In this document: positions 6,728-63,628 of the stretch, in pieces
How the letters are laid out: the number at the start of each line of letters is the position of its first letter
Position numbering within the stretch: position 1 is the first letter of the stretch
Origin: Elusimicrobiota bacterium
GTDB lineage: Bacteria; Elusimicrobiota; UBA8919
DNA length: 64,000 nt
NCBI GenBank assembly: GCA_028718185.1
Contig: JAQUMH010000009.1
Location: 37,764 to 101,763 of the forward strand
Direction: 5' to 3'
Translations under genes and position numbers: made by a program
The notes under the pieces: model-generated
Told to the model about the DNA's origin: nothing
What the model saw: only the letters and a program-made list of their open reading frames with translations
The model's database searches: none

Positions 6728-9700
6728 CTATTTGATTAGTCCTATCTTCCCGGTCTTCTTGTTACCGGCACTGTCATTTATCTGATAAACATATATACCT
6801 CTACCTACTTTATCACCATCGGCATTCTTTCCATCCCACTCGAGCCAGCCAAGATTGCCAAAATCTATCTCTTTCAATTCTCTAACTAATCCTCCTGATA
6901 CATTATACAATTTCATTATGCTGTTTACCGGCAAGTTCATTACTTTTAATTTACCCAGAACCGCTGTTGCCGGATTATATGGGTTTGGATATACTTTTAT
7001 ATTGCTCATATCAGCAGATAAATAACTACCCAATATACGGTATGTTGAAAAATGTTTGACGGTTGCAGTTACTGTGTTGTTTGTTTTATCTACTGTCTGC
7101 AGACCTGTTACCAAATCCCAATCTGTTCCGGTCCAATAATAAATCCTGAGTCCGTCTTCGTTTAATGTCCCTATATCTGCTGTTGTATATGGTATTGTTA
7201 TATTTACTGCTCTTGTGAATACCTGGTCCTCTAATTCCGGTGCACTTTCTTTAAATGTTAACTCACCAAAATCATAACATATCGGATGGACAGTATTAAT
7301 ATATTTTATTGAATTTTGGACCGACGGAACTGCACTCGTCTTTATTGAGGCAAGGTACTTGTTCATCGATAGGATTCCTGTAGGTATCAGTATCTTTAAT
7401 CCGTTAACACCCCGTATTGAACCACCCTGGTAGCCTACTAACTTTGCTATATACATATCATTGAAATTTATAATTATAGGCGATGTCGTGTCACCGGTCA
7501 GCTCTACAGTATCTATATCACTACGGAATGGAACAGAAACTTCCTTCTCACCTGCATCCGCTTCTGTTAATGTTGAATCTGTTGTATCCAGAACACTGCT
7601 TTTACTGTTCTTGGTTGTTAGTGTTAGTGTGCCGGTGTAATCGGTCGCAATACTATTCTCATCTACATTGTATACCTGTAATTTAAACTTTAAACTCGCA
7701 GATGCTGATGCTCCTACTTTTGTTGTTGTTGTCCCGTCATCGTAGTAATAGGTATATATCCGGTGTTTTAAGTTGTTGTTATATGTCGTAAAACTATATT
7801 GTGCTGATGTTTGAAGATTACCAAATGGGTCACGGCTATAAACCCTGTAATAATAGGTTTTGCCTTTCTGTAATCCGCCAATTGAAACGCTATGTAACCT
7901 TGTTGGTGTTGTATCTAATGAAGTTGTTATGCCCATTGCCGTTGTAGTTCCATATCCTACCTGCGAATCTGAGTTCTCATCAGTTGTCCATATTAAAACT
8001 GCACCATTTATTGTTACACTGGCACGTACATTGCTTATTACCGGCGGATTAGGATCAGTCGCACCTGTTGTAAAACTGTAATCACCTGTCGTTGTTGTGT
8101 TACCATTCATATCTACGGACACCATCCGGTAATGATAGACTGTATTCTCAGTAAGACCGTTTAATGTAACACTGTGTGAATATACTCCACCGGTATCTGC
8201 TACCAGCGTCGCACTACCATAACTTGTTGTTAAACCATATTCTATTTTGCTGTTCGCAGGTTCATTTGTCGTCCAGGTTAGAACTACGCCGCTACCGGAT
8301 ATGTTTGCCGGTGCCACCGCACTTACTACCGGCGGTGTAGTGTCGTTAGTTAGTCTTATTATACTGATATAATTAAAATTACCGTTCCAATCTTTACTAC
8401 CGGAATCCATTACTAACTTCATTATCAGGTTACCGGAAATAAGCAACACATTAGATGAGACTTCTATATCTGTCCACGTACTCCACCCGCCCGTATCAGG
8501 TATGCTTACCGGTGGTGTTATAATATTTGCTTGTGCATTATGAACACCAAATTCAAGGTGTATTGGATTTCCAATACTCCCCTGTCCATTTGATGCTCTT
8601 ATTATTATTTTATATTCAGCAGTCTCGCTCACATTTACACTGTATTCTAACCACTCACCGGATACTGCATACCCAATATTGTAACCACCACCGGTATCAG
8701 TGCAATTCTCTATATCTACTGCTTCACTTGTCCTGTATGCACCACCTAAATTGCCGGGGGTTGTATCATAATATGTTTTTCCTTCAGCAGAACCACTTGT
8801 TACCGTGTCATAATTCTCAATCTCTATCGTTGTTGTTGCTATTCCTATCTGCCATGGATTACCGTTGTTACCATATGACTGTTGTAGTGAAACGGGTGGT
8901 ATTACTATATATGCCACGCTATTAACTGAGCTATCGGTCATTGCTGTTTTAAACGCACGTGTTCGAACTGTCGCACTCTGGGCTAATGTAAATGGTGCTG
9001 AATATAGCAATGACGATGATGTCGGGTCTGTTCCATTTGTTGTATATCTTATCGTCGCTCCGCCGGTTGCACAACCTAAGGTTACTGTAACAGAACTTGC
9101 ATATGTCCCTGCTCCCGGGCTTATCGTTGGTGTTTCTACTGTATTGGGTGTATCTGCATTTAATTTTATTAAACTAATATAATTAAAATTACTACAATAA
9201 ACTGCCGCACTAGGATCCAACACTAACCTCATTATCTGGTTACCTGCATTAAGTGTTACATTTGTTGCGATTACTGCATCTGTCCATACCTGCCAGTTAC
9301 CTGTTCCAGGTAAGATTACTGAAGCTGTCTGAAGATATTTTACATCACTCTGGGCAAATTCAATATGAACACTATCGTCAACTGTTGTATCACGGGCTGT
9401 TCTTAATATTATTCTATATGTGCCGCTCTGATTTACATTAATACTATATTCTAACCATTCTCCGGGTATTGTATGTCCTATATCGTATCCAGCGCCTGTA
9501 TCACTGCATACTTCTATATCCACACCTTCGGTTGTCCTAAATATGTTTGAATGATCCTCCTGGCCAGGGGTTGTATCATGATATGCTATGCCCTCACCAG
9601 TGCCACTTGTTACTGTATCATAATCTTCTGCCTCTATAGTTGTTGTTCCTGAACCTATTGACCATGCTACTCCACTCGGATATGCCTGCTGTTGTGAAAC

Positions 9701-12700
9701 AGAACTATTTGTTATTACTACTACCAATGCTGACGTTGTCGTGGTTGCATTACTATTATCGGTTGCTTTTGCAGTTATGCTGTAAGTGCCCGATGATACA
9801 TTGTTCCATGTATATGCATACTGAGAATTACTGTCCGGAGTTGTAACTGCCGGTAATAACGGATTACCGTTACTGTAAAAATCTACTTTGCTGATAGTTC
9901 CGTCAGTGTCAGATGCATTTACTTTTATTGTTAATGTCGCAGGTGGATTACTGCCATTTGTAACCACAATTGTACTTATACTTACTGTCGGAGGAATTGA
10001 TGTTATTGTAAAATTACTGTCTGACATGTCTGTTGGACTACCATCAAGTTCCTGTATCCTTATCCGGCAGGTTGTGCTTGGTGTATTTGGGATATTTAAC
10101 GGTTGACTGCCGTCGTTGGCAGTGTTGGTTATATACGTTACCCAGCTTGTGCCGCTGTTTGTTGAGATAGCTATATTAACATTCCCTACTGTCCCGCCAC
10201 TCGTCCATGTTATTGTCTGCTGACTTCCGACTGTTAAACTTTCTCCACCATTGGGGTAGGTTACAGTTATTGTAGGTCCCGGGATTTCTGTAAGATGATT
10301 AAACCAAACATTAGCCATTTTATCGGAACCAGACTGGCTGGGATGGCAACCATCAATAAGATCTGTAGCAGGAATAATATTAGATTCATTATACATATCA
10401 ACAAAATAAACATTTTTGCCCTGGCTTTGTTTTGAAGCTACCACCCCAGGAATTGCATCATTATATGTAATAACTTCATTAAATAATTCAGTAGTTGTCT
10501 TGGGTGGATATGGCGCATTATCATAACTTGTCATAGGAATAATTGACGCTACGTAAACTTTTGCATTGGGTACTTTTGTCGTGATTTTATCTATAAGAGC
10601 ACTAAGTCTATTCGTAGTGTCAGCGAGTAGTTCGCCTGTATAACTACCCACGTCATTCGTTCCAATGTGCAGTAAAATAATATCGGAAGGATTCCACGTT
10701 AACCATGTGTCAATATCAGTATCAATTCCAAGCACTCTAATGCCACTATGTCCTTCATGATTTGGGTCCGGACAAGTATCTCCGACAGTTGTAGCACTTC
10801 CGACAAAATCATAATTCGGGTGAACAGGATCAGAATTTAGTAATGTCCATAAAGTGGTCCGATAACTAGGGCTCCGGGCAGTTATTGAATCTCCAAGGGG
10901 CATTATTTTTATAAGTGGTGTTACTTTGATTACTACATTGGATATTCCCGACCAGTTGGTGAGCATATCATCTCTTACCTTCATCGCAAAATAATAGGTT
11001 ATACCTGCACTTAAATTCTGGACTGTATAACTCTGTGGTGTTCCAGATGGCAGTGGGACCGGTTCGCCACTGCATTGTGTAGCTGTTGCCCAATTACTCT
11101 CATTTATACTTACATTTGCATAACGAATATCATACACACTTGCTGTACCTATATTACCATCATTACCGACTGAAGTCCAACTTAACACCACACTATTACT
11201 GGTTGCAACACCTGTCGTTAATGTGTTTATCGCTGAGGGTGGTGTTGTGTCGGGTGGCATAGTATAAGTTACTGTTATTGTTGTCTCTTTTATATTATTG
11301 GATGTATCAGTCGCTTTGGCATATATTACGTTGGAACCGTTTGCCAATGTAACACTATTACTCCATGGTGATAATGTTCCATTAACTGCAGTGTATGTTC
11401 CACCCGCTCCTACTTTCAATTCTACTTTACTCAACCCTACATTGTCTGACGCTGTACCACTTACCGTTAGTAGCGATGCTGTTACCGTTGAATTATTCGC
11501 CGGTGAGGTTATTGTTATTGCAGGAGGGGTAGGGTCAGATGCATTTGAATTACCATATATCTCAAATTCCCATAAGGAATATAAACAATATGAGATATTC
11601 TCCCCTCTTTTTGTACCATACATCCTTACATATCTACCACTACCATTTAATGTTATATCTTCAATACCGCCTGAACCACTTGTCTTTGTATATATTGTTT
11701 GCCAGTTTGAACCATCATTTGATACTTGTATCAGATAATCTTTAGCATATGTACAAAACCAATCTGTTCCCCATTTTAATACAATTTCAGTTATATTATA
11801 TGTAGCGCCTAAATCTATAGATATCCATTGCGGATCACTACCCAGTGATGCCCAACGAGTTGTTAAAATACCATCTACTGCTCTATTCGCGGAATAATTT
11901 GAATATATATCCGTGTATGTAGAAGAAACTGTTACTGTTTTATTTAATGCTATATTTGTTGTAAGAGCAGCAGTTTTAACAACAGGGGTAATATTAGATA
12001 TCGCAGAACAATTCCCTGCTGCATCTGACGACTTTATCGCAAAGTAATAATTGGTGTCCGGAACTAAACCCTGTACGGTATATGTCTGATTGTTACCTGC
12101 TGCCTTTGGCACAGGACCACCTAAACAATGTGCATCTTTCCAGTTGCTCTCGCTTATACTTAGAGTACTGCTACATCTTATATCGTATTCACTCACTGTA
12201 GTACTATAATCATCATTAGGATTTGGTGCTGTCCAACTTAGGACTATACTGCTACTGCCTAAACTACTTGTTGCAAAATTGTTTGTTACTGCTAAATTGT
12301 TTATTACTGTCGGAACAATTTTTTCAGTTACATAAGGAGTTCCACCTGTAGGTGTCATGACTATCAGCGTTGTGGCATACGGTCCCATATCAAAACTCTT
12401 ACTGTAGGAGTTAGTAGCTGGAACACTGGAATTATCTTCCTCTTTTTCAAGAAGGAAATTGTTATTGTTGTAACCATAGTTGCTGTGGGTATTATCCACC
12501 AGATATCGCTCATAGTGAATGGGCCCGGTCCCAAAACTGGAAGGAAGATTTGAGAGATTTATGCTCGCAGTTTGCATAACGTTTTGATTATTAGAGAGCA
12601 TTAACGCGACCCCCGAATTATCCTTGCTGGCAATGGAATATATATTGGTTGTACTTGACGCGCTGACCAGATAGTTCTTGGACATCTTCAGCATCTTATA

Positions 12701-17115: not shown

Positions 17116-20100
17116 TTATTTCACAAGCCCTATTTTTCCGGTCTTCTTATTACCGGCAGTGTCTTCTATCTGATATATATATACCGCTCTACCTACTTTG
17201 TCACCATCGTCATTCTTGCCATCCCACTCGAGCCAGCCAAGATTGCCATACTCTATCTCTTTCAACTCTCTGATTTTCTCACCTGTCACAGTATATATTT
17301 TCATAATGCTGTTTATCGGTAAATTGGTTATCTTCAATTTACCACTTACTGCCGTGGCAGGATTATACGGGTTTGGATACACATTAACATTACTCATGTC
17401 AGCAAACACGTAACTGCCCAATATACGGTATGTTGAAAAATGTCTGACGTTTGCAGTTACTGTGTTATTTGACTTATCTACTGTCTGAACTCCTGTCACC
17501 AAATCCCAATCTGTGCCAGTCCAGTAGTAGATTCTGAGTCCATCCTCGTTTAATGTCCCTATGTCCGTTGCTGTATATGGTATAGTTATGTTTACTGCAC
17601 GTGTAAATACCTGGTTTTCTAATACCGGTGCATTTCCAGTTCCAAATGTTAACTCACCAAAATCATAACATATCGGATTAACTGTATTAACATATCTCAT
17701 TGTGTTTTGGACTGCAGGTGGTACACTTGTTTTGATTGTTGCAAGATACTTGCCTATGGATACCACTCCTGATGGCACTACTATCTTTATTCCGCCTACT
17801 CCTTCTATTGTTCCGCCCTTATTGCCAACTAATTTTGATATATACAAATCACTAAAATTTATCATTATCGTTGTTGTAGTATCACCGGTCAATTCTAATG
17901 TATTTATATCTTTACTGAGCGGGATAGAAACATTCTTCTCACCTGAATCTGACTCAATAAATGTTGAATTTATTGAATCTACTACAGTGCCATTAGAATC
18001 TTTTGTCTTAATGGTCAGTGTTCCACTGTAATCCGTTGCTAAACTGTTCTCATCATTATACACCTGCAACAAGAACTTCAAACTTGCAGGTGTCGTTGAA
18101 TTATCGTAGTAATAGGTGTATATTCTGTGTTGTAGGTTAGATGTCTTGAAACTATACTGTGTTGATATCGCAAGGTTACCAGATGAATCTTTACTATAAA
18201 CCTTATAATAATATGTCTTACCTTTCTCTAAATTGCTAAGGAGGACACTGTGGTCGGGGACAAGTGTTGCGATTAATGTAGTTGTACTGCCCATTGCTGT
18301 TGTAAGTCCGTATGCTACCTGTGAATCTGATGGCTCATTAGTGGTCCATGTTATCACTGCACTGTCTTGTGTTACGCCGGCATGGACATTACTTATTAGC
18401 GGTGCATCAGGGTCATTTGCTGTTGTTGTAAAAACGTAGTCACCGGTTGTTGTAGGATTATTACTCATATCCGTTGTTATTATCCTGTAATGATATAATG
18501 TCTTTTCGGTAAGACCTGTTATTGGTACACTGTGGCTGGTTACAAAACTTGCTAATGTTGTTGTACTGCTATATGGTAGTGTTGTTCCGTATTGCACCTT
18601 ACTATTTGCAGGTTCATTTGTTGTCCAGGTTACTACTGCTTGACTGCCGGTTATGCTTGTTGTTGATACCGCACTTACTTCCGGTGGTGTTGTATCGGGA
18701 GTTAGTTTTATTATTTTAATGTAATTAATATTACTACAATCAGTTGCCGGGCTATTATCAAATACTAACTTCATTATCTGGTCACCTGGGAGAAGTATTA
18801 CTGAATTTACGACTTCTGTATCTTTCCATACCTGCCAACCACCTGTTGCCGGTAAACTTACTGATGGTGTTGCAAAATAAGTTACACCGTTCTGAACGAA
18901 TTCAAGATGTACTATATCGTTGACCGCAGGATCACGGGCTGTTCTCAATATTATTTGGTATTCGCCACCTTCACTTACATTTACACTGTATTCCAGCCAC
19001 TCTCCTTGTTTTGTCCACCCTATATTATACCCACCACCGGTATCAGTGCATTCCTGTACATCTACATTCTCAGTTGTCCTGTATGCATTACCACTGTTGC
19101 CTGGTGTTGTATCATTATATGCTACATCCTCACCACCTGTGTCATAGTTCTCTGCCTCTATTGTTGTTGCACTTAATAAAACTGAAGATATCTGCCACGG
19201 TGTTGTTGAATTTGTATTATCGGGATGATATGCATGTTGGGTTGATGTAGGTGTTATTGTTATACTTAATGCAGTGCTCCAGCCAGAACCCGCACCTTTG
19301 CTATCGGTTGCTTTGGTTTTTATTTGATATGTTCCTGCTGCTGTCCAACTGTGTGATAAACCCGCACCGGTACCTGAATTAACTAAATTAGTTTCATTAG
19401 TTGTTCCATCTCCCCAATCAAATGTATATTTCACCTGGTCACCATCAGGGTCTGTTCCCGATGTTGAGTAAGTATATGATACACCAATATTACCAGTTGT
19501 AGTTCCTGTTGGCGTGTTTGGTGTGTTGGGTGAATTGTTTAAGCCAGGAGTGTATGTTACTGTTACTGTTGTCTCTTTCTGATTAGCAGGTGTAGCGGTA
19601 TCTGTCGCTCTGGCATATATTACATTAGAACCACTTGTTGTTAATGTTACGGTTTTATTCCATGGTGATAATGCTCCACTAGCTGCGGTATATGTCCCAC
19701 CTATGCCTACCTTTACCTCCACTTTACTTAATGCTACATTGTCATATGCTGTGCCACTTACGGTTAAGAACGATGATACTGTTGCGTTATTCGCGGGTGA
19801 GGTGATTGTTATTATTGGCGGTGTGGTGTCGGGAGTTGTTGGTCCATCAACTGCTAATGGATCTTTGGACCATCTTACAATCACAGGAGCAGCATCAATA
19901 GGAGCAAATGGATCATTCAGTCGTCCTGTTCCACTAAGTAGAATCCAACTAGTCACTCCATTGCGTAAACATATATCTATTTTAGTATCAAGAGAATCAT
20001 CACCAGGACTAAGCTTACATCCTCCAGTTGGCATAGTTGGGTAATTATCGCTCAATTCTTTTATTTCCTTTTCAATTATGCCGTATAAATGAAATCCAAC

Positions 20101-20911: not shown

Positions 20912-23900
20912 TCATTTAATTAGTCCAATTTTCCCGGTCTTCTTATTACCGGCAGTGTCTTCTATCTGGTATATATATACAGCTCTGCCTACTTTATCAC
21001 CATCATCATTCTTGCCATCCCACTCGAGCCAGCCAAGGTTACCAAAATCTATCTCCTTCAACTCTCTGATTTTCTCACCTGTCACAGTATACAACTTCAT
21101 TACGCTGTTCATTGGCAGGTTTGTCACTTTTAACTTACATAGAACTGCTGTCGTTGGATTATATGGATTCGGATATACCCGGACATTGCTCATGTCAGCA
21201 GTTACATAACTGCCCAATATCCGGTATGTTGAAAAATGTGTGACGGTTGCGGTTACTGTATTGTTTGTTTTATCTACTATCTGAACTCCTGTCACCAAAT
21301 CCCAATCTGTCCCAGTCCAGTAATATATCCTGAGTCCATCTTCATCTAATGTCCCTATATCCACTGCTGTATATGGTATCGTTATGTTTAGTGCTCTTAT
21401 GAATGTCTGGTTGCTCAATACCGGTGCATTATTGTTAAATGTCAACTCACCAAAATCATAACATATCGGATTTACTGTGTTAACATACCTCATTGTGTTT
21501 TGGACTGCAGGTGCTGCGCTCGTCTTTATTGACGCTAAATACTTATTTACTGATAATACACCTGTAGGTATCAGTATTCTTAACCCGTTGGCGCCACGTA
21601 TTGAACCACCCTGATATCCTATTAACTTCGCTATATACATATCATTGAAATTTATCACTACCGGCGCTGTTACGTCGCCTGTTAGTTCTACTGTATTTAT
21701 ATCGCTGCGGAACGGGATTGAAACATCTTTCTCACCAGAATCTGCTTCGGTCAATGTTGAATCTGTTGTATCCAAGACACTACCCTTGCTGTTCTTCGTT
21801 GTAAGCGTTACAGTACCGGTATAATCCGTCACTAAACTACCCTCATCTAAATTATATACCTGCAGCTTGAACTTTAAACTCACAGATGCTGAAGCTCCTA
21901 TCTTAGTTGTTGTTGTCCCATCATCGTAGTAATAAGTATATATCCTGTGCTTTATGTTACTTAAAATCTTAAAACTATATTGTGATGATGTCGCAAGGTT
22001 ATCAGATGCATCTTTGCTGTAGACCTTGTAATAATAGGTCTTGTTTTTCTGTAACCCGGTAATGGAAACACTGTGTAGTCTGGCTGGTGTTGAATCTAAT
22101 GTTGTTGTTGTGCCTAACGCCGTTGTAGTTCCATATCCTACCTGGGTGTCCGAGTTCTCATCGGTATTCCATGTTATCACAGCACTGTTTTGTGTTACAC
22201 TGGCTCGGACATTGGTTATTACCGGAGCATCAATATCATTTTTAGTTGTTGTAAAACTATAATCACCAGTCGTTGTTGTATTGCCATTCATATCTACAGA
22301 CACTATCCTGTAATGATACAATGTATTCTCCGCAAGACCTGTTAATGGCACACTGTGACTATATACTCCACCAGTATCCGTCACCGGTGTTGCACTTCCA
22401 TAACCTGTTGTTAATCCATACTCTACTTTACTATTCGCTAATTCATTTGTCGTCCATGTTATTATCGCTCTATTACCACTTATGTTTGTTGTTGTTGCTA
22501 CACTTACTACTGGCGGTGTAGTATCGGCACTTAATCTTATTATTTTAATATAATTGAAATTGCCATTATACTCTCCTGCTCCAGTGTCCAGGACTAACTT
22601 CATTATCTGATTGCCTGCGGTAAGTACCACATTGGATGAAACTTCTACATCTGTCCATGTCTGCCATCCACCGGTATTAGGTATGCTCACTAATGGGGTT
22701 GTCCGATATGCGGTTCCACCGTGCGAACCGAATTCAAGATGGAACGGACTTGCTATACCATCTATAGCTCCTCTCATTATTATCTGGTACTCTGCGGTCT
22801 CATTCACATTTATACTGTATTCTAACCATTCGGTTGGTACTACGTATCCTACATCGTAACCACCACCGATATCAGTGCATTCCTCTATATCTACACCTTC
22901 ATTTGTCCTGTATTTATTTGGGATGTTGGTAGGTGTTGTATCATTGTATGCTTCACCCTGACCGCCTGTATCATAGTTCTCTGCTTCTATCGTTGATATT
23001 ACTACCCCTATTTTCCACGGATTCCCATTGTTTCCAAATGACATCTGACCTGTTACTGTTATTGCAAAATTAGAATTTGAAGTATCAGTAGTTCCTCCGC
23101 TTATCTCTAATAATCTTATTAAACAATTACTACTTGCGCTACTTGGCAGGGTTACCACTTCACTACCATCATTCGCTGTACTGGGAATTAGCGTGTTCCA
23201 ATTTGTTCCACCGTCTAATGATATCTGTATCAGGACATTCCCTACACCACCTGCACTTGTCCATGTTACTGTCTGCTGACTGCCGGCTATTAAATTTTCA
23301 CTGCCATTCGGGTAGGTTATTGTTATACTCTTTGTAGGTGTTGTCCCACTTGTCCCGTATACTTCAAACTCATATAACGAATATCCCCAACTTGTTCCTC
23401 GCGCTGTTCCATACATACGGATATATCTGCCACTACCATTTAGTCCAAGGGTCTCTATTCCGCCGGTTCCATTTGTCTTTGTGTATATTGTTGTCCAATT
23501 TATATTGTTACTTGATACTTGTATCTGGTAGTCCTTACCATATGCGTCTTGCCACTTTAGAACTACCTGAGTTATATTATATGTATCTGCTAAATCTATT
23601 TTTATCCATTGCGGGTCACTAAATTGTGATGACCACCGGGTTGCCGGATTACCATCTATCGCTTTTGTTGCTTCATACCCTGCTCCTTCTACTGATGATG
23701 TTGATACTATTTTCCCTATTGCTATATTACCTTGGGTATTTGTCTGTCCGCTTACAACATTGGATATTCCTGACCAATTAGGCACTTCATCACCTACCTT
23801 CATTGCAAAATAATAGATTATTCCTGCACTTAAACCCTGGACTGTATAACTCTGATTATTTCCGGATACCAACGGAGTGGGCACACCACTGCATTGGGTC

Positions 23901-27880: not shown

Positions 27881-27889
27881 TATACTATT

Positions 27890-27918
27890 TATATAACACA
27901 CTTCTGATATTTTGTCAA
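27890..27918 (-). promoter_or_regulatory. Promoter of the GH172 giant, nearly leaderless
   Basis: Minus strand: TTGACA (27918-27913), 17-bp spacer, TATATA (27895-27890). Only 9 bases separate the -10 box from the ATG at 27880, so transcription should start within a few bases of the start codon. GTGTGTTATATA is shared with the promoter at 14504-14532. Confidence 0.75.
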
Positions 27919-28085
27919 TCTTATTTGTTAACCCGATAACAAGTCGCCTTGCTCCTACCAGAAATAATGTAATCAAAATTTGCAAAATTTGTTTACAAAA
28001 AACATAAATTTTGTTCATAACATATTCCCCCTGTTCCCTTTAAAATCGTTATTATGTTCCTGACTTCGGACATTGCTTATCTGTC

Positions 28086-28454: not shown

Positions 28455-29405
28455 TTATTCTTTTGCCCCAAACCTTATACCTAATGATATTCTGTGAGTG
28501 TCGCCTAAATCTTTTGTAGGTATAAACGCATAATCCATATCAAATGACGAACTTTCACCGGCTATTTTAAACCCGCCTCCTAATGTGTAACTCTCTTCAT
28601 CATAACCTATCTTATAACCTGCGCGGATACTTAACATCTCTGCTATCAATAATTCCATCCCAATGTTCTCTCTCATACTATCTGTGTCTAATCCATAATT
28701 AATATCGGCTGCTATCGTTAAATTATTCTCGCTTTCAAATACAGATAGCTTTTTGCCTAAACCGGCTTTTATATTACCGGGCAAACTGTCGCTGCCTACT
28801 TTGCCGCCAATGTTCTGGACTGCAAGGCCTAATTGTATCCCGCCTTTTACAGGAACATATTCTGCACCTAAATCCAAGCCAAAACCTGATGCACTGTCTG
28901 TGTCTATTTTTTGACTTACCATCTTCAAACTACCACCTATGTTTATTGTTTCATCTACCTGTTTGCCGTAACTTATCGCACCACCCATATCCTTCGCACT
29001 ATAATTGCCTAAGCTGCCTGCCGTATCATATGCTCCATAGACATCTTCTAATGTCTTGCGTATACTACCATAATTAAGGTACATTATCTGCAGCCCTATT
29101 GTTGAATCTTCACTTATGGGATGTCCTATTGCTAAATATTCGTAACTTATTCCTTCAAAATGTGATAAATGCATAAATGAAAGTTCGGTCGCACTGACCG
29201 AACCTAACCCTGCGGGATTCCAATACACGCTATTAACATCTTCTGCTACTGCTGCCTGCGCGCCACCCATGCCTTCTTGCTTGGCGCCTACTCCTAACTT
29301 CAAAAACTGCATTGTTGAACTGCCTACTCCGGCTTCTGCATTGCTGATACATGTTACACAAGTAAACATTACTGACAACATTACTGCACTTAACATCTTA
29401 AACAT
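28455..29405 (-). CDS. PorV/UPF0164-family outer-membrane beta-barrel protein, paralogue 1
   Basis: The called start is the ATG at 29405, preceded by GGAGGTAATT; an in-frame ATG at 29441 lacks a site. The protein has a signal peptide ending near SNAEA and the family signature FLKLGVGAKQEGMGGAQAAVAEDVNSVYWNPAGL, split here by its repeats of alternating strands to a C-terminal HRISLGIRFGAKE. In T9SS, PorV binds C-terminal signals of cargo in the outer membrane and passes them to the sortase. That role is inferred here from family and from the adjacent cargo gene. It is the first gene behind riboswitch leader 2 and is followed after about 570 bp by the GH172 giant. The other two paralogues in the window are closely similar. 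Confidence 0.88.
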   Translation of the reverse strand: MFKMLSAVMLSVMFTCVTCISNAEAGVGSSTMQFLKLGVGAKQEGMGGAQAAVAEDVNSVYWNPAGLGSVSATELSFMHLSHFEGISYEYLAIGHPISEDSTIGLQIMYLNYGSIRKTLEDVYGAYDTAGSLGNYSAKDMGGAISYGKQVDETINIGGSLKMVSQKIDTDSASGFGLDLGAEYVPVKGGIQLGLAVQNIGGKVGSDSLPGNIKAGLGKKLSVFESENNLTIAADINYGLDTDSMRENIGMELLIAEMLSIRAGYKIGYDEESYTLGGGFKIAGESSSFDMDYAFIPTKDLGDTHRISLGIRFGAKE

Positions 29406-29523
29406 AATTACCTCCGACCAACAGGATTCAGGATTCAGCAAACAGCAATAAGAATTCAGTAATTTGATGTTGATGATCCCGATTCTTATTTATAATGGAA
29501 TTTGTTATCGGGATTATTTACTC

Positions 29524-30048: not shown

Positions 30049-30116
30049 AGTATAACGTACAAAGTAAAAACTGTCAATTGCCAAAATCACTATTTTTTTA
30101 TCAAAAATCACACTAT
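30049..30116 (-). promoter_or_regulatory. Promoter of riboswitch leader 2 with adjacent operator-like repeats
   Basis: Minus strand: TTGACA (30077-30072), 17-bp spacer, TATACT (30054-30049). CAAAATCACTATT (30082-30094) and CAAAAATCACACTAT (30102-30116) lie just upstream. The same 13-base motif lies 11 bp (one helical turn) further from the -35 box in leaders 1 and 3. Confidence 0.65.
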
Positions 30117-31738: not shown

Positions 31739-34700
31739 TTATTTCACTAATCCTATTTTCCCGGTCTTCTTGTTACCAGCACTGTCTTCTATCTGATATA
31801 CATATACTCCTCTGCCTACTTTGTCGCCATCGGCATTCTTACCATCCCACTCTATCCAGCCAAGATTGCCAAAATCTATCTCTTTCAATTCTCTAACTAA
31901 TCCTCCGGATACGTTATACAACTTCATCACGCTGTTTACAGGCAGGTTCATTACCTTTAACTTTCCCAAAACCGCTGTAGTAGGATTGTAGGGGTTAGGA
32001 TAGACTCGGACATTGTTCATATCAGCAGATAAATAACTACCCAATATACGGTATGTTGAAAAATGTTTGACTGTTGCAGTTACTGTATTGTTTGTTTTGT
32101 CTACTGTCTGAATTCCTGTAACCAATTCCCAATCTGTCCCGGTCCAGTAGTAGATTCTAAGTCCATCCTCATTTAACGTTCCTATATCCGATGCTGTCCA
32201 TGGTATAGTTATATTAACTGCTCTTGTAAATACCTGGTCCTCCAATTTCGGCGCACTTTCACCAAATGTTAACTCGCCAAAATTATAACATATCGGATTA
32301 ACTGTGTTTACATATTTTATTGAGTTCTTCACTGCAGGTACCGCACTCGTCTTTATTGACGCAAGATACTTGTTCGTAGATAAGACTCCCGTAGGTATTA
32401 ATATCTTCAGTCCGTTAGCACCCCGTATTGTTCCACCCTGGTAGCCTACTAACTTAGAGATATACATATCATTGAAACTTATCACGATCGGCGCTGTTGT
32501 ATCGCCTGTTAGCTCTACCGTATTTATATCACTACGGAACGGTATTGAAACTTCCTTCTCGCCGGAATCTGCCCCGGTCAATGTTGAATCTGTTGTATCC
32601 AGAACACTACTCTTACTGTTCTTGGTTGTAAGTGTTACTGTTCCTGTGTAATCGGTCGCAATACTGTTCTCATCTACGTTATATACCTGAACTTTGAACT
32701 TCAAACTCGCAGCTGCAGATGCTCCTGTCTTGGTTGCAGTTGTCCCGTCATCGTAGTAATAAGTATATATCTTGTGCTTTAAGTTATATGTCTTGAAACT
32801 ATACTGCGATGATGTTGCAAGGTTACCGGTTGCATCTTTGCTATAAACCTTATAATAATATATTTTACCTTTCTGTAATCCGGTAATAGTAACACTGTGT
32901 AGCATATACTTTGCGGTATCTAACGTCGTTGTACTGCCCAGCGATGTTGTAAGTCCATATGCTACCTGCGAATCGGACGCCTCATCTGTATTCCACGTTA
33001 TTACTGCAGTATTCTGCGATACACCGGCTACAACATTGCTTATTACCGGTGCCTTAGTATCATTTGCTGTTGTTGTAAAACTGTAATCTCCGGTCGTAGT
33101 AGGGTTACCATTCATATCTGTCGACACTATCCGGTAATGATATAATGTATTTTCGGTAAGCCCGCTGAGTGTAACACTGTGGTTATATACTCCACCGGAA
33201 TCTGTTACAGGTGTTGAATTACCATAACTTGTTGTTAAACCATATTCTACTTTACTGGTAGATGGCTCATTCGTGGTCCATCTTATTACTATTCCACTGC
33301 CGGATATATTCGATGGTGTTACAACACTTACTACCGGTGGTGTTATATCAGCACTTAGTCTTATTATCTTAATGTAATTAAAATTACCGTTCCAATCTGC
33401 ACTGCCGGAATCCATTACTAATTTCATTATCTGGCTGCCGGAGGTAAGTGACACATTTGATGATACTTCTATATCAGTCCATACCTGAAAACCACCTGTC
33501 ACTGGTACACTTACAGATGGTGTTAGAATATATGGAGTTAAATTGTGTGTTCCAAACTCAATGTGTATTGGATTTCCGGCACTTGCAAGTCCGTTGGCTG
33601 CTCTTAGTATTATCTTGTATTCAGCAGTCTCACTCACACTTACACTATATTCCAACCATTCGGTTGGTAGCGTCCATCCTACATCGTACCCACCACCGGT
33701 ATCACCGCAAATCTCTATATCCACTGCTTCAGTTGTCCTGTATGCTCCGCCACTGTTGCCTGGTGTTGTATCATTATATGTCTCTCCTTCAGCCAAACCT
33801 GTTGTTACTGTATCATAATTTTCCACCTCTATAGTTGATGTTCCTATTCCTATCTGCCATGGCAATGCTGAACCATCAACATGATATGCATGCTGAGGTG
33901 AAGTGCCTGTTATTGTATATGCCACGCTATTTACTGAACTGTCGGTCATTGCTGCTTTGAATGCACGGGCTCGGACTGTCGCACTCGCAGTTAACGTGAA
34001 TGGTGCCGAATATAATATTGACGATGATGTTGGGTCTGTTATTCCATCTGTCGTATATCTTATCGTTGCTCCGTTGGTTGCACAGCCGAGTGTTACAGTA
34101 ACAAAATCTGAATATGTTCCTGCGCTTGGACTAATTGTCGGTGTTGCTACTGTGTTAGGTGTCTCTGCACTTATTCTTACTAATTTTATGTAGTTAAAAT
34201 CACCACACCATTCCGCTGTGCTGTTTTCCATAACTAACTTCATTATCTGGTTGCCTGCGGTAAGCGTTACCGAAGATGAGATTTCTACATCAGCCCAAGT
34301 ATCAAAACCACCTGTCGGCGGCACACCTATGGACGGTGTTGTACTATATGGTGATAAATTATGTGTACCAAATTCAAGGTGTATCGGACCGGCAGTATCC
34401 ATAAGTCCGTTAGCTGTCCTTAATATTACTTTATATTCACCGCCTTGATTCACATTTATGCTGTATTCCAGCCATTCACCGGGTTTCGCCCAACCAACCT
34501 GGTATCCGGCACCTGTATCAGAGCATGCTCTCACATCTACATCATCTGTTCTGTATTCATTACCGCTGTTACCCACCGTTGTATCACTATATGCCTCACC
34601 CTCTCCAGTACCACTTGTTACCATATCGTAATCTTCCATCTGTATAGTTGTCGTTCCTGTTCCTATTGACCAAGCCACCCCACCCGGGTATGCCTGCTGT

Positions 34701-41410: not shown

Positions 41411-41540
41411 ATTTTTACCTCCATTTACACCAGCTCTTATGTTATTATGTTCTAATGTTATCATATTATCAAATTATATTAATTTATCAATCTTTTAATC
41501 TTTCAATTCTCTAATTCACTAATCCACTAATTATTTTCTT

Positions 41541-41626: not shown

Positions 41627-42577
41627 TTATTCTTTTGCCCCGAACCTTATACCAAGCGATATCCTGTGTGTGTCTCCTAAATCTTTTGTCGGGACAAATG
41701 CATAATCTATATTGAATGTTGAGCTTTCACCGGTTATCTTAAACCCGCCGCCTAATGTGTATGTCTCTTCGTCATATCCGAGCTTGTAGCCTGCTCGAAT
41801 TGCTATCATCTCTGCTATTAATAATTCTAAACCTATATTCTCTTTTGTAATTGCACTGTCTAATCCATAATTTACATCTGCTGCTACCGTCAAATTGTTC
41901 TCACCTTCAAATGCTGATAGCTTCTTGCCTAATCCCGCTTTTATATTGCCGGGCAAACTGTCACTGCCTACTTTCCCGCCTAAGTTCTGGACTGCTAACC
42001 CTAATTGTAACCCGCCTTTTACAGGAACATATTCTACTCCAAAATCTAATCCAAACCCTGATGCACTGTCACTATCTATCTTCTGGCTTACCATCTTCAA
42101 ACTACCGCCTACATTTATTGTTTCATCTATCTGTTTGCCATAACTTATTGCTCCACCCATGTCTTTTGCGTTAAAACTACCTACACTACCAACAGCATCA
42201 TAACCACCATTGGCATCTTCTAATGTCTTATCCATACTGCCATAACTTACATACATTATTTGTAAGCCTATTGTTGAACTTTCATTAATCGGATGTCCTA
42301 CTGCCAAATACTCATAACTTATTCCTTCAAAAAGTGATAAATGCATAAATGATAGTTCGGTAGCACTTACTGAACCTAACCCAGCAGGGTTCCAATACAC
42401 ACTATTTACATCTTCGGCTACTGCTACCTGTGCACCACCCATACCTTCCTGCTTTGCACCTATTCCTACTTTTAAAAACTCCATAGCTGAAGTACCGACA
42501 TCGGCATCTACTTTACCCGTACATATAGTACCTATAACCATTACTATCAACATTACTGCATTTAACATCTTGCGCAT
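41627..42577 (-). CDS. PorV/UPF0164-family outer-membrane beta-barrel protein, paralogue 2
   Basis: This 316-residue protein begins with a signal peptide (to about VDA) and carries FLKVGIGAKQEGMGGAQVAV and NSVYWNPAGLGSV near the N-terminus, then repeated strand pairs and the C-terminal HRISLGIRFGAKE. GGAGG lies 4 nt before the ATG. It is the first gene behind riboswitch leader 3 and precedes the FG-GAP giant, whose C-terminal domain is its likely client by analogy with T9SS. The clearest difference from paralogue 1 lies in the strand-loop around MYVSYGSMDKTLEDANGGYD. Confidence 0.88.
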   Translation of the reverse strand: MRKMLNAVMLIVMVIGTICTGKVDADVGTSAMEFLKVGIGAKQEGMGGAQVAVAEDVNSVYWNPAGLGSVSATELSFMHLSLFEGISYEYLAVGHPINESSTIGLQIMYVSYGSMDKTLEDANGGYDAVGSVGSFNAKDMGGAISYGKQIDETINVGGSLKMVSQKIDSDSASGFGLDFGVEYVPVKGGLQLGLAVQNLGGKVGSDSLPGNIKAGLGKKLSAFEGENNLTVAADVNYGLDSAITKENIGLELLIAEMIAIRAGYKLGYDEETYTLGGGFKITGESSTFNIDYAFVPTKDLGDTHRISLGIRFGAKE

Positions 42578-46540: not shown

Positions 46541-49500
46541 TCATTTCACTAATCCAACTTTCCCTGTCTTCTTGTTACCGGCAGCGTCTTCTATCTTGTA
46601 TATATATACTCCTTTGCCTACCTTGTCACCATTGTCATTCTTGCCATCCCACTCAAGCCAGCCAAGATTACCATAATCTGTCTCTTTTAACTCTCTTATT
46701 ATATCGCCTGTCACAGTATATAACTTCACTATACTGTTTATAGGTAAATTGCTTATCTTCAATTTACCATTAACTGCTGTTGCAGGATTATATGGGCTTG
46801 GATATACTTTTATATTATTTAAATCTACTGTCACATAACTGCCTAATATCCGGTATGTTGAAAAGTGTGTTACTGTTGCTGTTACTGTATTGTTTACTTT
46901 GTCTACTTTCTGCACTCCCGTAACTAACTCCCAATCTGTTCCTGTCCAATAGTAAATTCTAAGTCCGTCTTCGTTTAATGTCCCTATGTCCGATGATGTA
47001 TATGGTATCGTTATGTTCACTGCTCTTGTGAATGTCTGGTTCTCTAATACAGGCGCACTATTGTTAAATGTCAGCTCGCCAAAATCATAACAGATAGGAT
47101 TCACCGTGTTAGCATATTTCATTGTGTCTCGGACCACAGGCGCTGCACTTGTCCTTATTGACGCTAAATATTTATTAACTGATAAGACTCCTGTCGGTAT
47201 CAGTATCTTTAATCCGTTAGCGCCTCGTATTGTTCCACCTTGATAGCCTACTGACTTGCCAACATACATATCACTGAAATTTATTATCACAGGGGCAGTG
47301 GTATCACCGGTCAACTCTACTGTATTTATATCACTTCGGAACGGGATTGATACTTCCTTCTCACCTGCATCTGCCTCGGTTAATAATGTATCTACCGTAT
47401 CCAGGACACTACTTTTACTGTTCTTTGTTGTAAGTGTTATTGTGCCTGTGTAGTCAGTCGCTATGCTGTTCTCATCTACATTATATACCTGCACTTTAAA
47501 CTTCAAACTCGCTGATGATGATGCACCTACCTTGGTTGTTGTTGTTCCGTCATCGTAGTAATATGTGTATATTATATGTTTTATGTTGTTGTTGTATGTC
47601 TTAAAACTGGATTGTTCTGATTCTGCAAGATTGTTAGATGCATCTTTGCTGTAAACCTTATAATAATAGGTCTTTCCTTTTAGTAACCCGCTAATGGAAA
47701 CACTATGTAACCTAGTCATTGTGGTATCTAATGTCGTTGTACTGCCCATCGTTGTTGTTTGTCCATATGCTAATTGCGAATCTGAGTTCTCATCGGTATT
47801 CCAGGTTATCACTGCTCCATTTTGTGTTACTCCGACTTTCACATTGCTTATTACTGGCGGATTAGGATCATTAAGAATTGTTGCAAAACTATAATCAACT
47901 GTCGTTGTAGGATTACCGTTCATATCTACGGACACCATCCGGTAATGATAGGTTGTGTTCTCAGCAAGCCCGCTTAGTGTAACACTGTGGTTATATACTC
48001 CTCCGGTATCGGTTATAGCGGTAACACTGCCATAACTTGTTGTTAAGCCGTACTCTACTCTACTGTTAGATAACTCATTTGTTGTCCAGGTTATCACTAT
48101 TGAATTCCCTGTTATACTTATTGTCCCCGGAGTACTAACTACTGGCGGTGTCGTATCAGAACTCAGTCTTATTATCTTAATGTAATTTAAATTACCGCAA
48201 TGGTCGGCTGCTCCTGATTCCATGACCAGCTTCATTATTTGGTTGCCTGCGGTAAGTACCATATCAGACGAAACTTCTATATCTGTCCAGGTCTGCCAGC
48301 CACCGGTATTTGGTACATTTACTGATGCTGTTGTCCTATATGGAACTAAATTGTGCGAACCAAATTCAAGATGTACAGGACCACCGGCACTCCCGGCTGC
48401 TCCTCTTAGGATTATCCTGTATTCAGCAGTCTCGCTCACATTTATACTGTATTCTAACCATTCGCTTGGAATTGTATATTCTACATCGTAGCCGCCTCCG
48501 ATATCTGTACAATTCTCGATATCTACCGCCTCGTTTGTCCGGTATTTATTGGGGATGTTGCTGGGAGTTGTATCATTGTATGCCTCTCCCTGTCCGCCTG
48601 TATCGAAATTCTCTAACTCTATTGTTGTTGTGTTTGCTCCTATCTGCCAGGGGTTACCATTGTTTCCAAATGACATCTGGCCGGTTACTGTTATTGAAAA
48701 AGTAGCATTTGAACTGTCGGTAGTCCCTCCAACTATCTCTACTAACCTTATTAAACAATTACTACTCGCACTGCTCGGTAATGTTACGACTTCATTACCA
48801 TCATTAACTGTGTTGGCTACTAATGTACTCCAATTAGTTCCGCCATCTACAGATATCTGGAGCATTACATTCCCTACTCCACCGGCACTCGTCCACGTTA
48901 CTGTCTGCTGGCTGCCGGCTAGTAAATTCTCGCCACCGTTCGGGTAACTTATTGTTATACTCTTCACTGGAGTTATACCACTTGTCCCGTATACTTCAAA
49001 CTCATTTAGTGAATAGCCCCAACTTGTTCCCCGCGCTGTGCCATACATACGGATATATCTACCGCTGCCATTAAGTCCACTTAGTGTTTCTACACCACCG
49101 GTTCCATTTACCTTTGTATATATTGCTGTCCAATTTATATCATTACTGGATACTTGGAGCTGATAGTCCTTTCCATATGCGCCTGCGTCTTGCCACCTTA
49201 GCACTACCTGATTTATATTATATGTATTTACTAAATCTATTTCTAACCATTGCGGGTCGCTAAATTGTGATGACCAGCGAGTCGATACATTCCCATCTAC
49301 TGCCTTAGTCGCTTCTAATCCCGCGCCCTCTTCCGATGACGCTGTCGCTGTTTTACCTATTGCTATATTCCCTTGGGTAGTCGTCTGTCCACTTACTATA
49401 TTGGATATCCCTGACCAGTTAGGTACTTCATCGCCTACCTTCATCGCAAAATAATATGTTATCCCGACATTTAAACCCTGGACTGCATAACTCTGGTTAT

Positions 49501-53977: not shown

Positions 53978-53997
53978 AATTAACACCTCAATAAGTT

Positions 53998-54155: not shown

Positions 54156-57100
54156 TCACTTTACCAGTCCTACCTTCCCTGTCTTCTTGTTACCGGCAGC
54201 GTCTTCTATCTTGTATATATATACTCCTTTGCCTACCTTGTCGCCATTGTCATTCTTACCATCCCACTCGAGCCAGCCTAGATTACCATAATCTATTTCT
54301 CTTAACTCCCTTATTATATCGCCTGTCACAGTATACAACTTCACTATACTGTTTATAGGCAGGTTTGTTATCTTCAATTTACCATTGACTGCCGTTGCAG
54401 GATTATACGGGCTTGGATAGACTTTTATATTATTTAAATCTACTGTAACATAACTGCCTAATATCCGGTATGTTGAAAAGTGTGTTACTGTCGCTGTTAC
54501 CGTATTGTTTAATTTGTCTACCTTCTGCACTCCTGTTACTAACTCCCAATCTGTCCCACTCCAGTAATATATCCTAAGTCCATCTTCGTTTAATGTCCCT
54601 ATGTCCGCTGATGTATATGGTATCGTTATGTTCACTGCTCTTGTGAATGTCTGGTTCTCTAATACAGGAGCACTATTGCTAAATGTCAGCTCGCCAAAAT
54701 CATAACATATCGGATTTACCGTGTTAGCATATTTCATTGTGTCTCGAACAGCAGGCACTGCACTTGTCTTTATTGATGCTAAATATTTATTAACTGATAA
54801 GACTCCTGTCGGTATCAGTATCTTTAGTCCGTTTGCACCTCGTATTGTTCCTCCCTGATAACCTACCAACTTACCAATATACATATCACTGAAATTTATT
54901 ACTATCGTAGATGTTGTATCTCCTGTTAGCTCTATTGTGTTTATATCACTTCTAAACGGGATTGAAACTTCTTTCTCGCCTGCATCCGTCTCAAGTAATG
55001 TTGAATCTACTGTATCCAAAACACTACTCTTACTGTTCTTTGTTGTAAGTGTTATTGTCCCGGTATAGTCAGTCGCTATGCTGTTCTCATCCATATTATA
55101 TACCTGCACTTTAAACTTCAAACTCGCTGATGCTGACGCACCTACCTTGGTCGTTGTTGTCCCGTCATCGTAGTAATATGTGTATATTATATGTTTTATG
55201 TTGTTGTTGTATGTCTTAAAACTGGATTGTTCTGATTCTGCAAGATTGTTAGATGCATCTTTGCTGTAAACCTTATAATAATAGGTCTTTCCTTTTAGTA
55301 ACCCGCTAATGGAAACACTATGTAACCTAGTCATTGTGGTATCTAATGTCGTTGTACTGCCCATCGTTGTTGTTTGTCCATATGCTAATTGCGAATCTGA
55401 GTTCTCATCGGTATTCCAGGTTATCACTGCTCCATTTTGTGTTACTCCGACTTTCACATTGCTTATTACTGGCGGATTAGGATCATTAAGAATTGTTGCA
55501 AAACTATAATCAACTGTCGTTGTAGGATTACCGTTCATATCTACGGACACCATCCGGTAATGATAGGTTGTGTTCTCAGCAAGCCCGCTTAGTGTAACAC
55601 TGTGGTTATATACTCCTCCGGTATCGGTTATAGCGGTAACACTGCCATAACTTGTTGTTAAGCCGTACTCTACTCTACTGTTAGATAACTCATTTGTTGT
55701 CCAGGTTATCACTATTGAATTCCCTGTTATACTTATTGTCCCCGGAGTACTAACTACTGGCGGTGTCGTATCAGAACTCAGTCTTATTATCTTAATGTAA
55801 TTTAAATTACCGCAATGGTCGGCTGCTCCTGATTCCATGACCAGCTTCATTATTTGGTTGCCTGCGGTAAGTACCATATCAGACGAAACTTCTATATCTG
55901 TCCAGGTCTGCCAGCCACCGGTATTTGGTACATTTACTGATGCTGTTGTCCTATATGGAACTAAATTGTGCGAACCAAATTCAAGATGTACAGGACCACC
56001 GGCACTCCCGGCTGCTCCTCTTAGGATTATCCTGTATTCAGCAGTCTCGCTCACATTTATACTGTATTCTAACCATTCGCTTGGAATTGTATATTCTACA
56101 TCGTAGCCACCACCGATATCTGTACAATTTTCTATATCTACCGCCTCGTTTGTCCGGTATTTATTGGGGATGTTGCTGGGAGTTGTATCATTATACGCCT
56201 CTCCCTGTCCGCCTGTATCATAGTTCTCTAACTCTATTGTTGTTGTGTTTGCTCCTATCTGCCACGGGGTACCTGCCGGTGTGTTTCCAAATGACATCTG
56301 TCCTGTTACTGTTATTGAAAAATATCCATTTGTAGTATCAGTAGTCCCGCCAACTATCTCTACTAACCTTATTAAACAACTACTGCTTGCATTACTCGGT
56401 AATGTTACGACTTCATTACCATCATTCGCTGTGTTGGCTACTAATATACTCCAATTTGTCCCGCCATCTACAGATATCTGGAGCATTACATTCCCTACTC
56501 CACCAACACTTGTCCATGTTACTGTCTGCTGGCTGCCGGCTAGTAAATTCTCGCCACCGTTCGGGTAGGTTATTGTTATGCTCTTTGCCGGCGTTGTCCC
56601 GCTTGTCCCGTATACTTCAAACTCATTTAGTGAATATCCCCAATTCGTTCCTCGCGCTGTGCCATACATACGGATATATCTGCCACTACCGCTAAGTCCA
56701 CTTAGTGTTTCTACACCACCGGTTCCATTTACCTTTGTATATATCGCTGTCCAATTTATATCATTACTGGATACTTGGAGCTGGTAGTCTCTTCCATATG
56801 CGCCTGCGTCTTGCCACCTTAGCACTACCTGGGTTATATTATATGTATTTACTAAATCTATTCTTAGCCATTGCGGGTCGCTAAATTGTGATGACCAACG
56901 AGTCGAGACATTCCCATCTACTGCCTTAGTCGCTTCTAATCCTGCGCCCTCTTCCGACGATGCTGTCGCTGTTTTACCTATAGCTATATTCCCTTGGGTA
57001 GTCGTCTGTCCACTTACTACATTGGATATCCCTGACCAGTTAGGTACTTCATCGCCTACCTTCATAGCAAAATAATATGTTATCCCGGCATTTAAACCCT

Positions 57101-61646: not shown

Positions 61647-61694
61647 AATTAATACCTCCATATGAATGTTCTTGTATTCTTACGTTCTAAATTC

Positions 61695-62548: not shown

Positions 62549-63499
62549 TTACTCTTTCCCTCCAAACCTTATACCTAACGATATCCTGTGTGTATCGCCT
62601 AAATCTTTTGTCGGAACAAACGCATAATCTAAATTAAATGTTGAACTTTCACCGGCTATCCTAAACCCGCCACCTAATGTATATGTCTCTTCATCATATC
62701 CGAGCTTGTAGCCTGCTCGGATTCCTATCATCTCCGCGAGCATTAACTCCATACCGATATTCTCTTTCGTAATTGCAGTGTCTAATCCATAATTGACATC
62801 AACTGCGAGCGTTAAATTGTTCTCACCTTCAAATGCTGAGAACTTCTTGCCTAAACCTGCCTTTATATTACCCGGCATACTATCACTTCCTACTTTACCG
62901 CCTAAATTCTGTACCGCTAAACCTAATTGAATTCCACCTTTAACAGGAACATACTCTACTCCTAAGTCTAATCCAAACCCGGATGTATTGTCTGTGTCTA
63001 TCTTCTGGCTTGCTATCTTCAAACTGCCACCTACATTTATTGTATCATCTACCTGTTTGCCGTAACTTATCGCGCCACCAATATCCTTTGGACTGTAACT
63101 GCCCACACTACCTACTGCATCATATGCGCCTGCAGAATCTTCTAACGTCTTATCAATACTGCCATAATTAAGGTACATTACCTGTAAACCAATTGTAGAA
63201 CTTTCACTAACAGGATGTCCGAACGCCAAATACTCGTAACTTATTCCTTCAAAATATGATAAATGCATAAAGGAGAATTCGGTCGCACTAACTGACCCTA
63301 ACCCTGCCGGATTCCAATACACGCTATTGACATCTTCGGCTACTGCTACCTGCGCGCCACCCATTCCTTCCTGCTTGGCACCTACTCCTACTTTTAAAAA
63401 CTGCATTGCTGAGCTGCCGACACCGGCTTCTACTTTGCTGATACACATAATTCCAGTAAACAATGTTGCTAACATAACGACATTCATCACTTTTAACAT
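62549..63499 (-). CDS. PorV/UPF0164-family outer-membrane beta-barrel protein, paralogue 3
   Basis: The called start is the ATG at 63499 with GGAGG 5 nt upstream; the open frame extends to 63622 through the leader hairpin, which is unlikely to be translated. The 316-residue protein has a signal peptide (to about VEA), the FLKVGVGAKQEGMGGAQVAV and NSVYWNPAGLGSV signature and ends HRISLGIRFGGKE. It heads the unit with the small CBM35-like gene and the two GH27 giants, whose C-terminal domains are its likely clients. Confidence 0.88.
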   Translation of the reverse strand: MLKVMNVVMLATLFTGIMCISKVEAGVGSSAMQFLKVGVGAKQEGMGGAQVAVAEDVNSVYWNPAGLGSVSATEFSFMHLSYFEGISYEYLAFGHPVSESSTIGLQVMYLNYGSIDKTLEDSAGAYDAVGSVGSYSPKDIGGAISYGKQVDDTINVGGSLKIASQKIDTDNTSGFGLDLGVEYVPVKGGIQLGLAVQNLGGKVGSDSMPGNIKAGLGKKFSAFEGENNLTLAVDVNYGLDTAITKENIGMELMLAEMIGIRAGYKLGYDEETYTLGGGFRIAGESSTFNLDYAFVPTKDLGDTHRISLGIRFGGKE

Positions 63500-63514
63500 A
63501 TTTACCTCCATTTT

Positions 63515-63628
63515 CTGAAATTTATTGAAACTTATTGAAATTTGTTGTTGATTATCCCGATTCTTATTTATAATTGAATATGTAATCGGGATTGTTTTAT
63601 TGGTCTCCGGTAGGGGACTCAATAAAAC
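63515..63628 (-). repeat. Spacer repeats and CCUACCGG-loop hairpin, leader 4
   Basis: TTGAAATTTA-type units lie at 63515-63545. A hairpin with GUUUUAUUG/CAAUAAAAC arms (63594-63628) matches the one at 13949-13983 except for one loop base (CCUACUGG to CCUACCGG). Confidence 0.6.

Follow-up and report, generated by a model that had tools for sequence, protein, structure and literature searches.

The window, the whole 64,000-nucleotide stretch of Elusimicrobiota DNA analysed here, encodes on its minus strand six complete giant proteins that end in a common block. Sequence comparison divides this block into three parts: a sandwich-type spacer, a ZU5-family domain and a type IX secretion system (T9SS)-like sorting domain. 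The best explanation of the whole, to which a probability of roughly 0.5 is assigned, is that the block forms the secretion end of a cargo in which self-cleavage of the ZU5 domain at an F-S bond takes the place of the peptidase PorU. This reading draws on the domain identities, on a strongly conserved tripeptide directly before the sorting domain and on the SprA-like and PorV-family proteins recognized by profile matches. The module described as uncharacterised in the initial annotation represents an established domain family that here occupies a new position.

The first copy of the block lies at 6728-7768 on the minus strand (IYTYYYDDGTT...HFSTYRILGSY...GKIGLIK), and on the plus strand the translation of 6728-7790 is riddled with stops. 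The block terminates all six complete minus-strand giants, with a length of 343 aa in five of them and 335 aa in ORF 17116-20838, and the other five copies share 73-89% identity with copy 1, in agreement with the initial annotation, which had described the block as conserved in all six. The features of the window are as follows:

6728..7768, minus strand: C-terminal block copy 1, which ends ORF 6728-13795 (2355 aa)
7427..7768, minus strand: copy 1 part 1, probable Ig/macroglobulin-like beta sandwich of about 105 aa (AF2, Foldseek, VIA-align)
7022..7426, minus strand: copy 1 part 2, predicted ZU5-family domain GGSIRG...HFSTYRILGSY (hhalign, PDB ankyrin ZU5 matches)
7046..7054, minus strand: copy 1 H-F-S tripeptide with Ser-2250 and the candidate scissile F-S bond (conservation)
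6731..7021, minus strand: copy 1 part 3, predicted T9SS type A-like sorting domain YPNPYNP...WDGKN...GKIGLIK (PorZ/PorU profile matches)
17116..18132, minus strand: copy 2, 335 aa, of ORF 17116-20838 (predicted ZU5 17410-17817, HFS 17434-17442, sorting domain 17119-17409)
20912..21952, minus strand: copy 3, of ORF 20912-28018 (predicted ZU5 21206-21610, HFS 21230-21238, sorting domain 20915-21205)
31739..32779, minus strand: copy 4, of ORF 31739-41464 (predicted ZU5 32033-32437, HFS 32057-32065, sorting domain 31742-32032)
46541..47581, minus strand: copy 5, of ORF 46541-53986 (predicted ZU5 46835-47239, HFS 46859-46867, sorting domain 46544-46834)
54156..55196, minus strand: copy 6, of ORF 54156-61661 (predicted ZU5 54450-54854, HFS 54474-54482, sorting domain 54159-54449)
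28455..29441, minus strand: PorV/PorQ-family barrel upstream of giants 20912 and 17116 (NF033709, E 1.5e-50, 172.6 bits, cut-off 90)
41627..42577, minus strand: PorV/PorQ-family barrel upstream of giant 31739 (NF033709, 177.6 bits)
62549..63622, minus strand: PorV/PorQ-family barrel upstream of giants 54156 and 46541 (NF033709, 169.8 bits)

The window also contains a minus-strand ORF at 4951-5511 with the internal repeat KFVAAPSNGAN, which resembles REP-associated transposases, and two plus-strand genes at 30115-30894 and 43416-44207 that by eye resemble AraC-like regulators and are divergent from the PorV-led giant clusters.

A search of the genome from which the window derives (3.03 Mb, 27 contigs) with a profile of the six window copies gave 73 matches at E<=1e-3. 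Near-complete blocks make up 30 of these, 22 begin at columns 144-227 and extend into the sorting domain, 20 are confined to the sorting domain (five of these lie in short frames, of 42-86 aa), and one comprises the first part only. With 73 matches, 30 of them near full length, recurrence of the block is far beyond chance, and the conservation across the six window giants is that of one paralogue family within one genome. The upstream edge of the block is not sharp, as the two fibronectin-like domains before it are also well conserved in the 30 copies; the frequency of the majority residue per 20-residue stretch is 0.67-0.80 in these upstream domains and 0.76-0.93 inside the block. Five contigs of this genome (C1, C5, C9, C15 and C24 of G000) terminate inside a copy of the block or its sorting domain, or exactly at one, as if repeats had broken the assembly, and further copies may exist. 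At another locus (L093:3-3563; G000:C3, match 141248-141559), the sorting domain closes an open frame of 18319 aa. In other genomes, similarity to the block falls on parts 2 and 3 among the matches listed.

Residues 250-346 of the block are very probably a T9SS type A-like C-terminal sorting domain, as judged from profile comparisons. The last ~95 residues align with the C-termini of PorZ and PorU in NCBIfam, and a profile of 41 diverse members (A3) matches PorZ (5m11) at E 7.2e-15 and PorU (6za2) at E 3.4e-5. At E<=0.1, both the PorZ model NF052228 and TIGR04183 match 40 of the 41 members. The window copies themselves are below the curated cut-offs, with 16.2 and 16.5 bits against 23 for TIGR04183 and 14.5 against 27 for PF18962. 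The domain sits at the extreme C-terminus, starts with YPNP (YPSP in two window copies) and has a Lys near its end; a near-invariant Lys close to the C-terminus of such domains (CTDs) is described in PMC10994853, and the residue is present in 37 of 41 members. The final 90 residues, ~96 as delimited here, had been called sorting-like in the initial annotation and the block had been placed in a secretion context, and both views are borne out by the sorting domain and by the PorV-family proteins, which had been named as PorV paralogues and exceed the NF033709 cut-off. A sorting-domain-like tail was also observed after a PorV-like barrel (by eye) in a 444-aa ORF of another locus (L059:209-1540, minus strand), where it is not at the C-terminus.

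The stretch of ~140 residues that precedes the sorting domain (about 108-249 of the block) is almost certainly a ZU5-family domain whose end carries the H-F-S tripeptide, an assignment that draws on a chain of profile matches. Pfam ZU5 (PF00791) gave no match to three window copies even at E<=10 and none in the window's own genome at E<=1e-3, and therefore membership rests on intermediates. Among 60 genomes of relatives, the Pfam model exceeds its cut-off at five places in three genomes; the scores of individual relatives are 37.6 bits (L081), 23.2 (L082), 19.0 (L085) and 13.5 (L067) against a cut-off of 21. A single 249-aa tail from a genome of the same family exceeds both the ZU5 cut-off (37.6 bits, cut-off 21) and that of Por_Secre_tail (30.4 bits, cut-off 27). 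A window-type profile, built from the six window copies with L028 and L029, was aligned by hhalign to the domains of six relatives, namely the five places above the Pfam cut-off and L067, which is under it, and the two align through H-F-S over 115 columns with a probability of 99.5 and an E-value, referring to this one comparison, of 3.6e-22. In BLASTP, one pair has 35% identity (E 5e-10). Against the PDB, the profile of the six relatives' domains (A7) matches ankyrin-2 at E 3.6e-7 and ZO-1 at E 2.4e-4, and a profile of 20 rows including two window copies (A6) matches ankyrin-3 at E 7.7e-6; the ankyrin alignments displayed end upstream of the H-F-S columns, and so the PDB matches lend the tripeptide itself no support. 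The initial annotation recognized no named domain in the first 200 residues, a statement superseded by the ~140 residues assigned to ZU5 and by the sandwich-like appearance of the first ~105.

ZU5-like matches are widespread in the phylum, occurring in 145 of the 294 genomes and 74 of the 90 genera sampled. Outside the phylum, a search of genome contigs with profile A2 gave one locus, from a Bacilli genome assembled from sheep rumen (L051:4846-7806), in which the ZU5-like domain ends in KHFSPY and is followed by what by eye is a VWA-like part; no sorting domain was found after the ZU5-like domain of this protein. Four queries found no relatives on viral contigs, the window ZU5 and sorting part gave no match on plasmids, and the L051 domain gave none in phages. 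At one locus (L061:1492-2241, minus strand), the ZU5-like part matches columns 59-152 of 153 of the archaeal PGF-pre-PGF model TIGR04213 at E 3.5e-4, which is possibly the same domain ahead of another kind of sorting signal.

Residues 1-105 of the block are probably an Ig/macroglobulin-like sandwich, as judged from a predicted model. An AF2 model of the whole block (copy 1 with the six window rows) has a mean pLDDT of 41.9, and the sole stretch with some confidence is at residues about 21-100, where ten-residue means are mostly 55-83. The best Foldseek match of this model is complement C5 at E 2.9e-3. VIA-align, whose listing of 50 rows effectively compared residues 1-128 of this first model, gave Z 8.5 and an rmsd of 2.0 over 75 residues against an E. 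coli alpha-2-macroglobulin fragment; a Z near 8 is weak, and nothing beyond a common arrangement can be said. None of the 50 rows is a ZU5 chain, an absence without weight given the span compared. None of the relatives among the matches listed covers part 1, and those that reach its end do so from column 82 (G001:C50) and column 78 (L053). A second AF2 model, of the ZU5 part (six window rows and L051), has a mean pLDDT of 39.7. Both models are too poor to judge the geometry of a strained bond or how parts 2 and 3 are folded.

To describe the end of the ZU5-family domain, which reads HFST in all six window copies, ZU5-like sites were collected from the fetched loci with profile A6 at E<=1e-6, giving 139 sites, or 124 distinct sites after removal of 15 duplicates, of which 123 are from the phylum and one is the Bacilli locus. 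Sites falling below this threshold with A6, such as L047 (HLA) and L049, were excluded. The tripeptide H-[FL]-[ST] is present in 118 of the 124 distinct sites, a set collected by profiles that contain the tripeptide and hence biased in its favour. HFS occurs 81 times, HLS 26, HFT seven and HLT four, and six others occur once each, among them SFS, KLS, NFS, EFS and HLG. By position, H is found in 119 of 124, F or L in all 124, and S or T in 123; in an earlier and looser set of 41, the corresponding counts are 36, 40 and 38. Two loci of the window's own genome (L029 and L030, G000:C2; their open frames measure 2544 and 4198 aa) have R-F-T in place of H-F-S with equal match scores. When 36 loci, one per genome, were picked by match rank and not by motif, all 36 had both H[FL][ST] and a sorting domain, these loci being among the best-scoring sites of a profile that contains the tripeptide. 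Among the ZU5 columns of profiles A3, A6 and A9, the His of the tripeptide is second in information content to a Trp. The sorting domain follows 118 of the 124 distinct sites, and the median distance from the Ser to its YPxP start is 19 residues (115 sites). Similarity to the GPS cleavage site is not significant: the site of ADGRF1 was matched at E 0.27 and 0.84, the latter in a search with an alignment of 32 ZU5-like domains, trimmed to their final ~59 residues, in which ADGRF1 ranked second with HLT beneath HFS, and Pfam GPS matched two of 41 members with a best E of 0.13.

The same residues mark a known cleavage site, as PIDD is described in PMC3210808 to cut itself at HF/S after each of its ZU5 domains, and CARD8 and NLRP1 at SF/S. 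By analogy, self-cleavage of the bacterial domain at HF-S is a tentative prediction given slightly less than even odds. The main rival is a ZU5 domain that does not cleave and serves as a rigid junction presenting or capping the sorting domain, with H-F-S kept for folding, the F or L as a buried anchor and the His for packing; it is a serious contender, if clearly short of an even chance. Several animal ZU5 domains, such as those of ankyrin and UNC5, are not known to self-cleave, and the family is present in non-cleaving animal proteins. The variants RFT, SFS, KLS, NFS, EFS and HLG are also consistent with a non-cleaving role, as are two ZU5-like domains internal to other giants (L083 and L084) that are followed by hundreds of residues. 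In the Nup98 experiments described in PMC3210808, change of the His lowers cleavage only slightly, so that conservation of this residue could be structural, and PorZ, which has the closest solved sorting domain, is described in PMC11285876 as retaining that domain on secretion, so that the window domains might stay on too. Were the role purely structural, however, the S or T found in 123 of 124 sites would be hard to account for, as would the tight association with a sorting domain in 118 of 124.

The proteins expected around a T9SS-type sorting domain were sought in the window's own genome and in related genomes. In its own genome there are 44 PorV/PorQ-family matches over the cut-off. On the same strand, 17 of them begin no more than 500 bp downstream of a sorting-domain match, and 34 do so within 3 kb. 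For 20 neighbour pairs, the distances among sorting domains correlate with those among PorV-family proteins (Mantel r 0.76, p 5e-5), and after removal of near-duplicates the correlation in 16 pairs is r 0.27 (p 0.013); joint duplication accounts for part of it, and the sequence distances suggest cognate pairs of shuttle and type A-like cargo. SprA-like matches (E<=1e-3) are present in 56 of 60 related genomes and none of 14 control genomes, and none of the 60 has SprA over the curated cut-off. The SprA-like protein of the window's own genome (1733 aa) matches TIGR04189 in three stretches at E 6.1e-35, with 119.9 bits against a cut-off of 200, and its gene adjoins PorV-family genes and a CTD-bearing M6-type protease. 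Two further genes beside it resemble LptF and LptG. The PorU model NF033707, with at most 10 candidates scored per genome, gave listed matches confined to the C-terminal end of PorU (columns 861-1095), and so the C25 peptidase family (PF01364) was searched instead: a PorU-type C25 peptidase was not found in the window's own genome and was found in one of the 60 genomes. The sole C25 matches among the 60 are two loci of that genome, L079 and L080 (G004). The motor GldM/PorM gave no match in any of the 60 genomes, but the control genomes likewise gave none. T9SS genes are stated in a passage of PMC11285876 to be absent outside a group of phyla.

The initial annotation had offered the whole ~260-residue region as a possible unit for recognition by the PorV paralogues, and the PorV-family genes upstream of the window giants, together with the 44 matches in the genome, agree with such a unit; it is nevertheless very unlikely. 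Docking in the T9SS is attributed to the C-terminal domain in PMC10994853 and PMC11285876, and none of the 17 PorV genes that lie at most 500 bp after a sorting domain has a neighbour of the full-block class. Among the 73 own-genome matches, 20 comprise the sorting domain only; of the 15 outside short frames, the upstream sequence was examined for five (the second gene of L035, L036, L046, L087 and L093), and no ZU5-like site precedes the sorting domain in any of them (A6, E<=1e-6). Sorting domains are thus found without ZU5, and the Bacilli protein has ZU5 without a sorting domain, so that part 3 is the expected PorV-facing unit. A stalk in the cell wall or at the surface, in which sandwich domains made uniform by duplication act as filler, suits the first ~105 residues, which resemble a common Ig/macroglobulin sandwich and are preceded by fibronectin-like domains, but is most improbable for the block as a whole, because filler would not keep a ZU5 and sorting-domain pair with ZU5-like matches in 74 of 90 genera and a sorting domain after 118 of 124 sites.

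In the preferred reading, a secretion end with self-cleavage in place of PorU, docking, translocation, self-cleavage and release are putative steps. The cargo would first be exported by Sec, after which part 3 would dock, as in the T9SS, on a shuttle of the PorV family and on the SprA-like pore. The folded ZU5 domain would then break the F-S bond of its chain through an N-to-O acyl shift, as in PIDD and CARD8/NLRP1, where according to PMC3210808 the Ser attacks the preceding bond and the pieces can remain together. Cleavage would free the enzyme part from its covalent tie to the sorting domain, which is the task of PorU in P. gingivalis, where it generally removes the CTD as described in PMC11285876. 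The two pieces may remain associated by way of the final ZU5 strand until a pull separates them, and part 1 together with the fibronectin-like domains would serve as a spacer. Extended to the phylum, this would amount to a T9SS-like export without a PorU sortase, in which cargoes cut themselves from their sorting domain by ZU5 (H-[FL]/[ST]) and many have a dedicated PorV-family shuttle, a generalization that is rather doubtful. If it held for the whole phylum, with the cut built into the cargo, processing in the T9SS need not depend on PorU. Self-cleavage would also give the H-[FL]-[ST] signature of bacterial ZU5 domains a clear and easily tested use, link the cleavage chemistry of animal inflammasome proteins and PIDD to bacterial secretion, and provide a self-releasing tag for surface display.

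Among known systems, the T9SS type A CTD (TIGR04183/PF18962; PorZ, PorU) resembles part 3 in its C-terminal position, YPNP start, near-invariant Lys and significant PorZ profile match, whereas the window copies are under the curated cut-offs and differ in having a ZU5 domain directly before the sorting domain, 44 PorV-family matches in one genome and no PorU-type peptidase found there. PGF-pre-PGF (TIGR04213) is archaeal and precedes a sorting signal; three of 41 members match it at E<=0.1, but below its cut-off (20.6 against 28). Type B CTDs with their PorP/SprF shuttles (PMC12618676) are similar in that the shuttle gene often comes immediately after that of the cargo, whereas the pairs described here combine type A-like sorting domains with PorV-family genes. 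The self-cleaving ZU5 domains of PIDD and CARD8/NLRP1 (FIIND), and the related GPS and Nup98 sites, share the ZU5 profile similarity and H-[FL]-[ST] at the domain end, with HF/S as in PIDD (described in PMC3210808); here, however, the protein is a bacterial cargo predicted to be secreted, the place of the UPA and death-fold domains of PIDD and CARD8 is taken by a sorting domain, and cleavage is a prediction only. No report of ZU5 coupled to a T9SS tag was found in the open-licence literature. A bacterial self-cleaving ZU5 domain is already a published prediction: Zhang et al. 2012 (PMC3482391) describe the unity of ZU5, GPS and Nup98 domains, the presence of ZU5 in bacterial toxins and in large surface proteins with glycohydrolases, and their proposed self-cleavage. 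The window giants share with these proteins the ZU5 superfamily in large bacterial surface proteins, some with glycohydrolases, and the predicted cut, but in the toxins described there the domain is typically near the N-terminus of RHS proteins with TcdB/TcaC-type export, whereas in the window giants it is C-terminal and directly before a T9SS-type tag.
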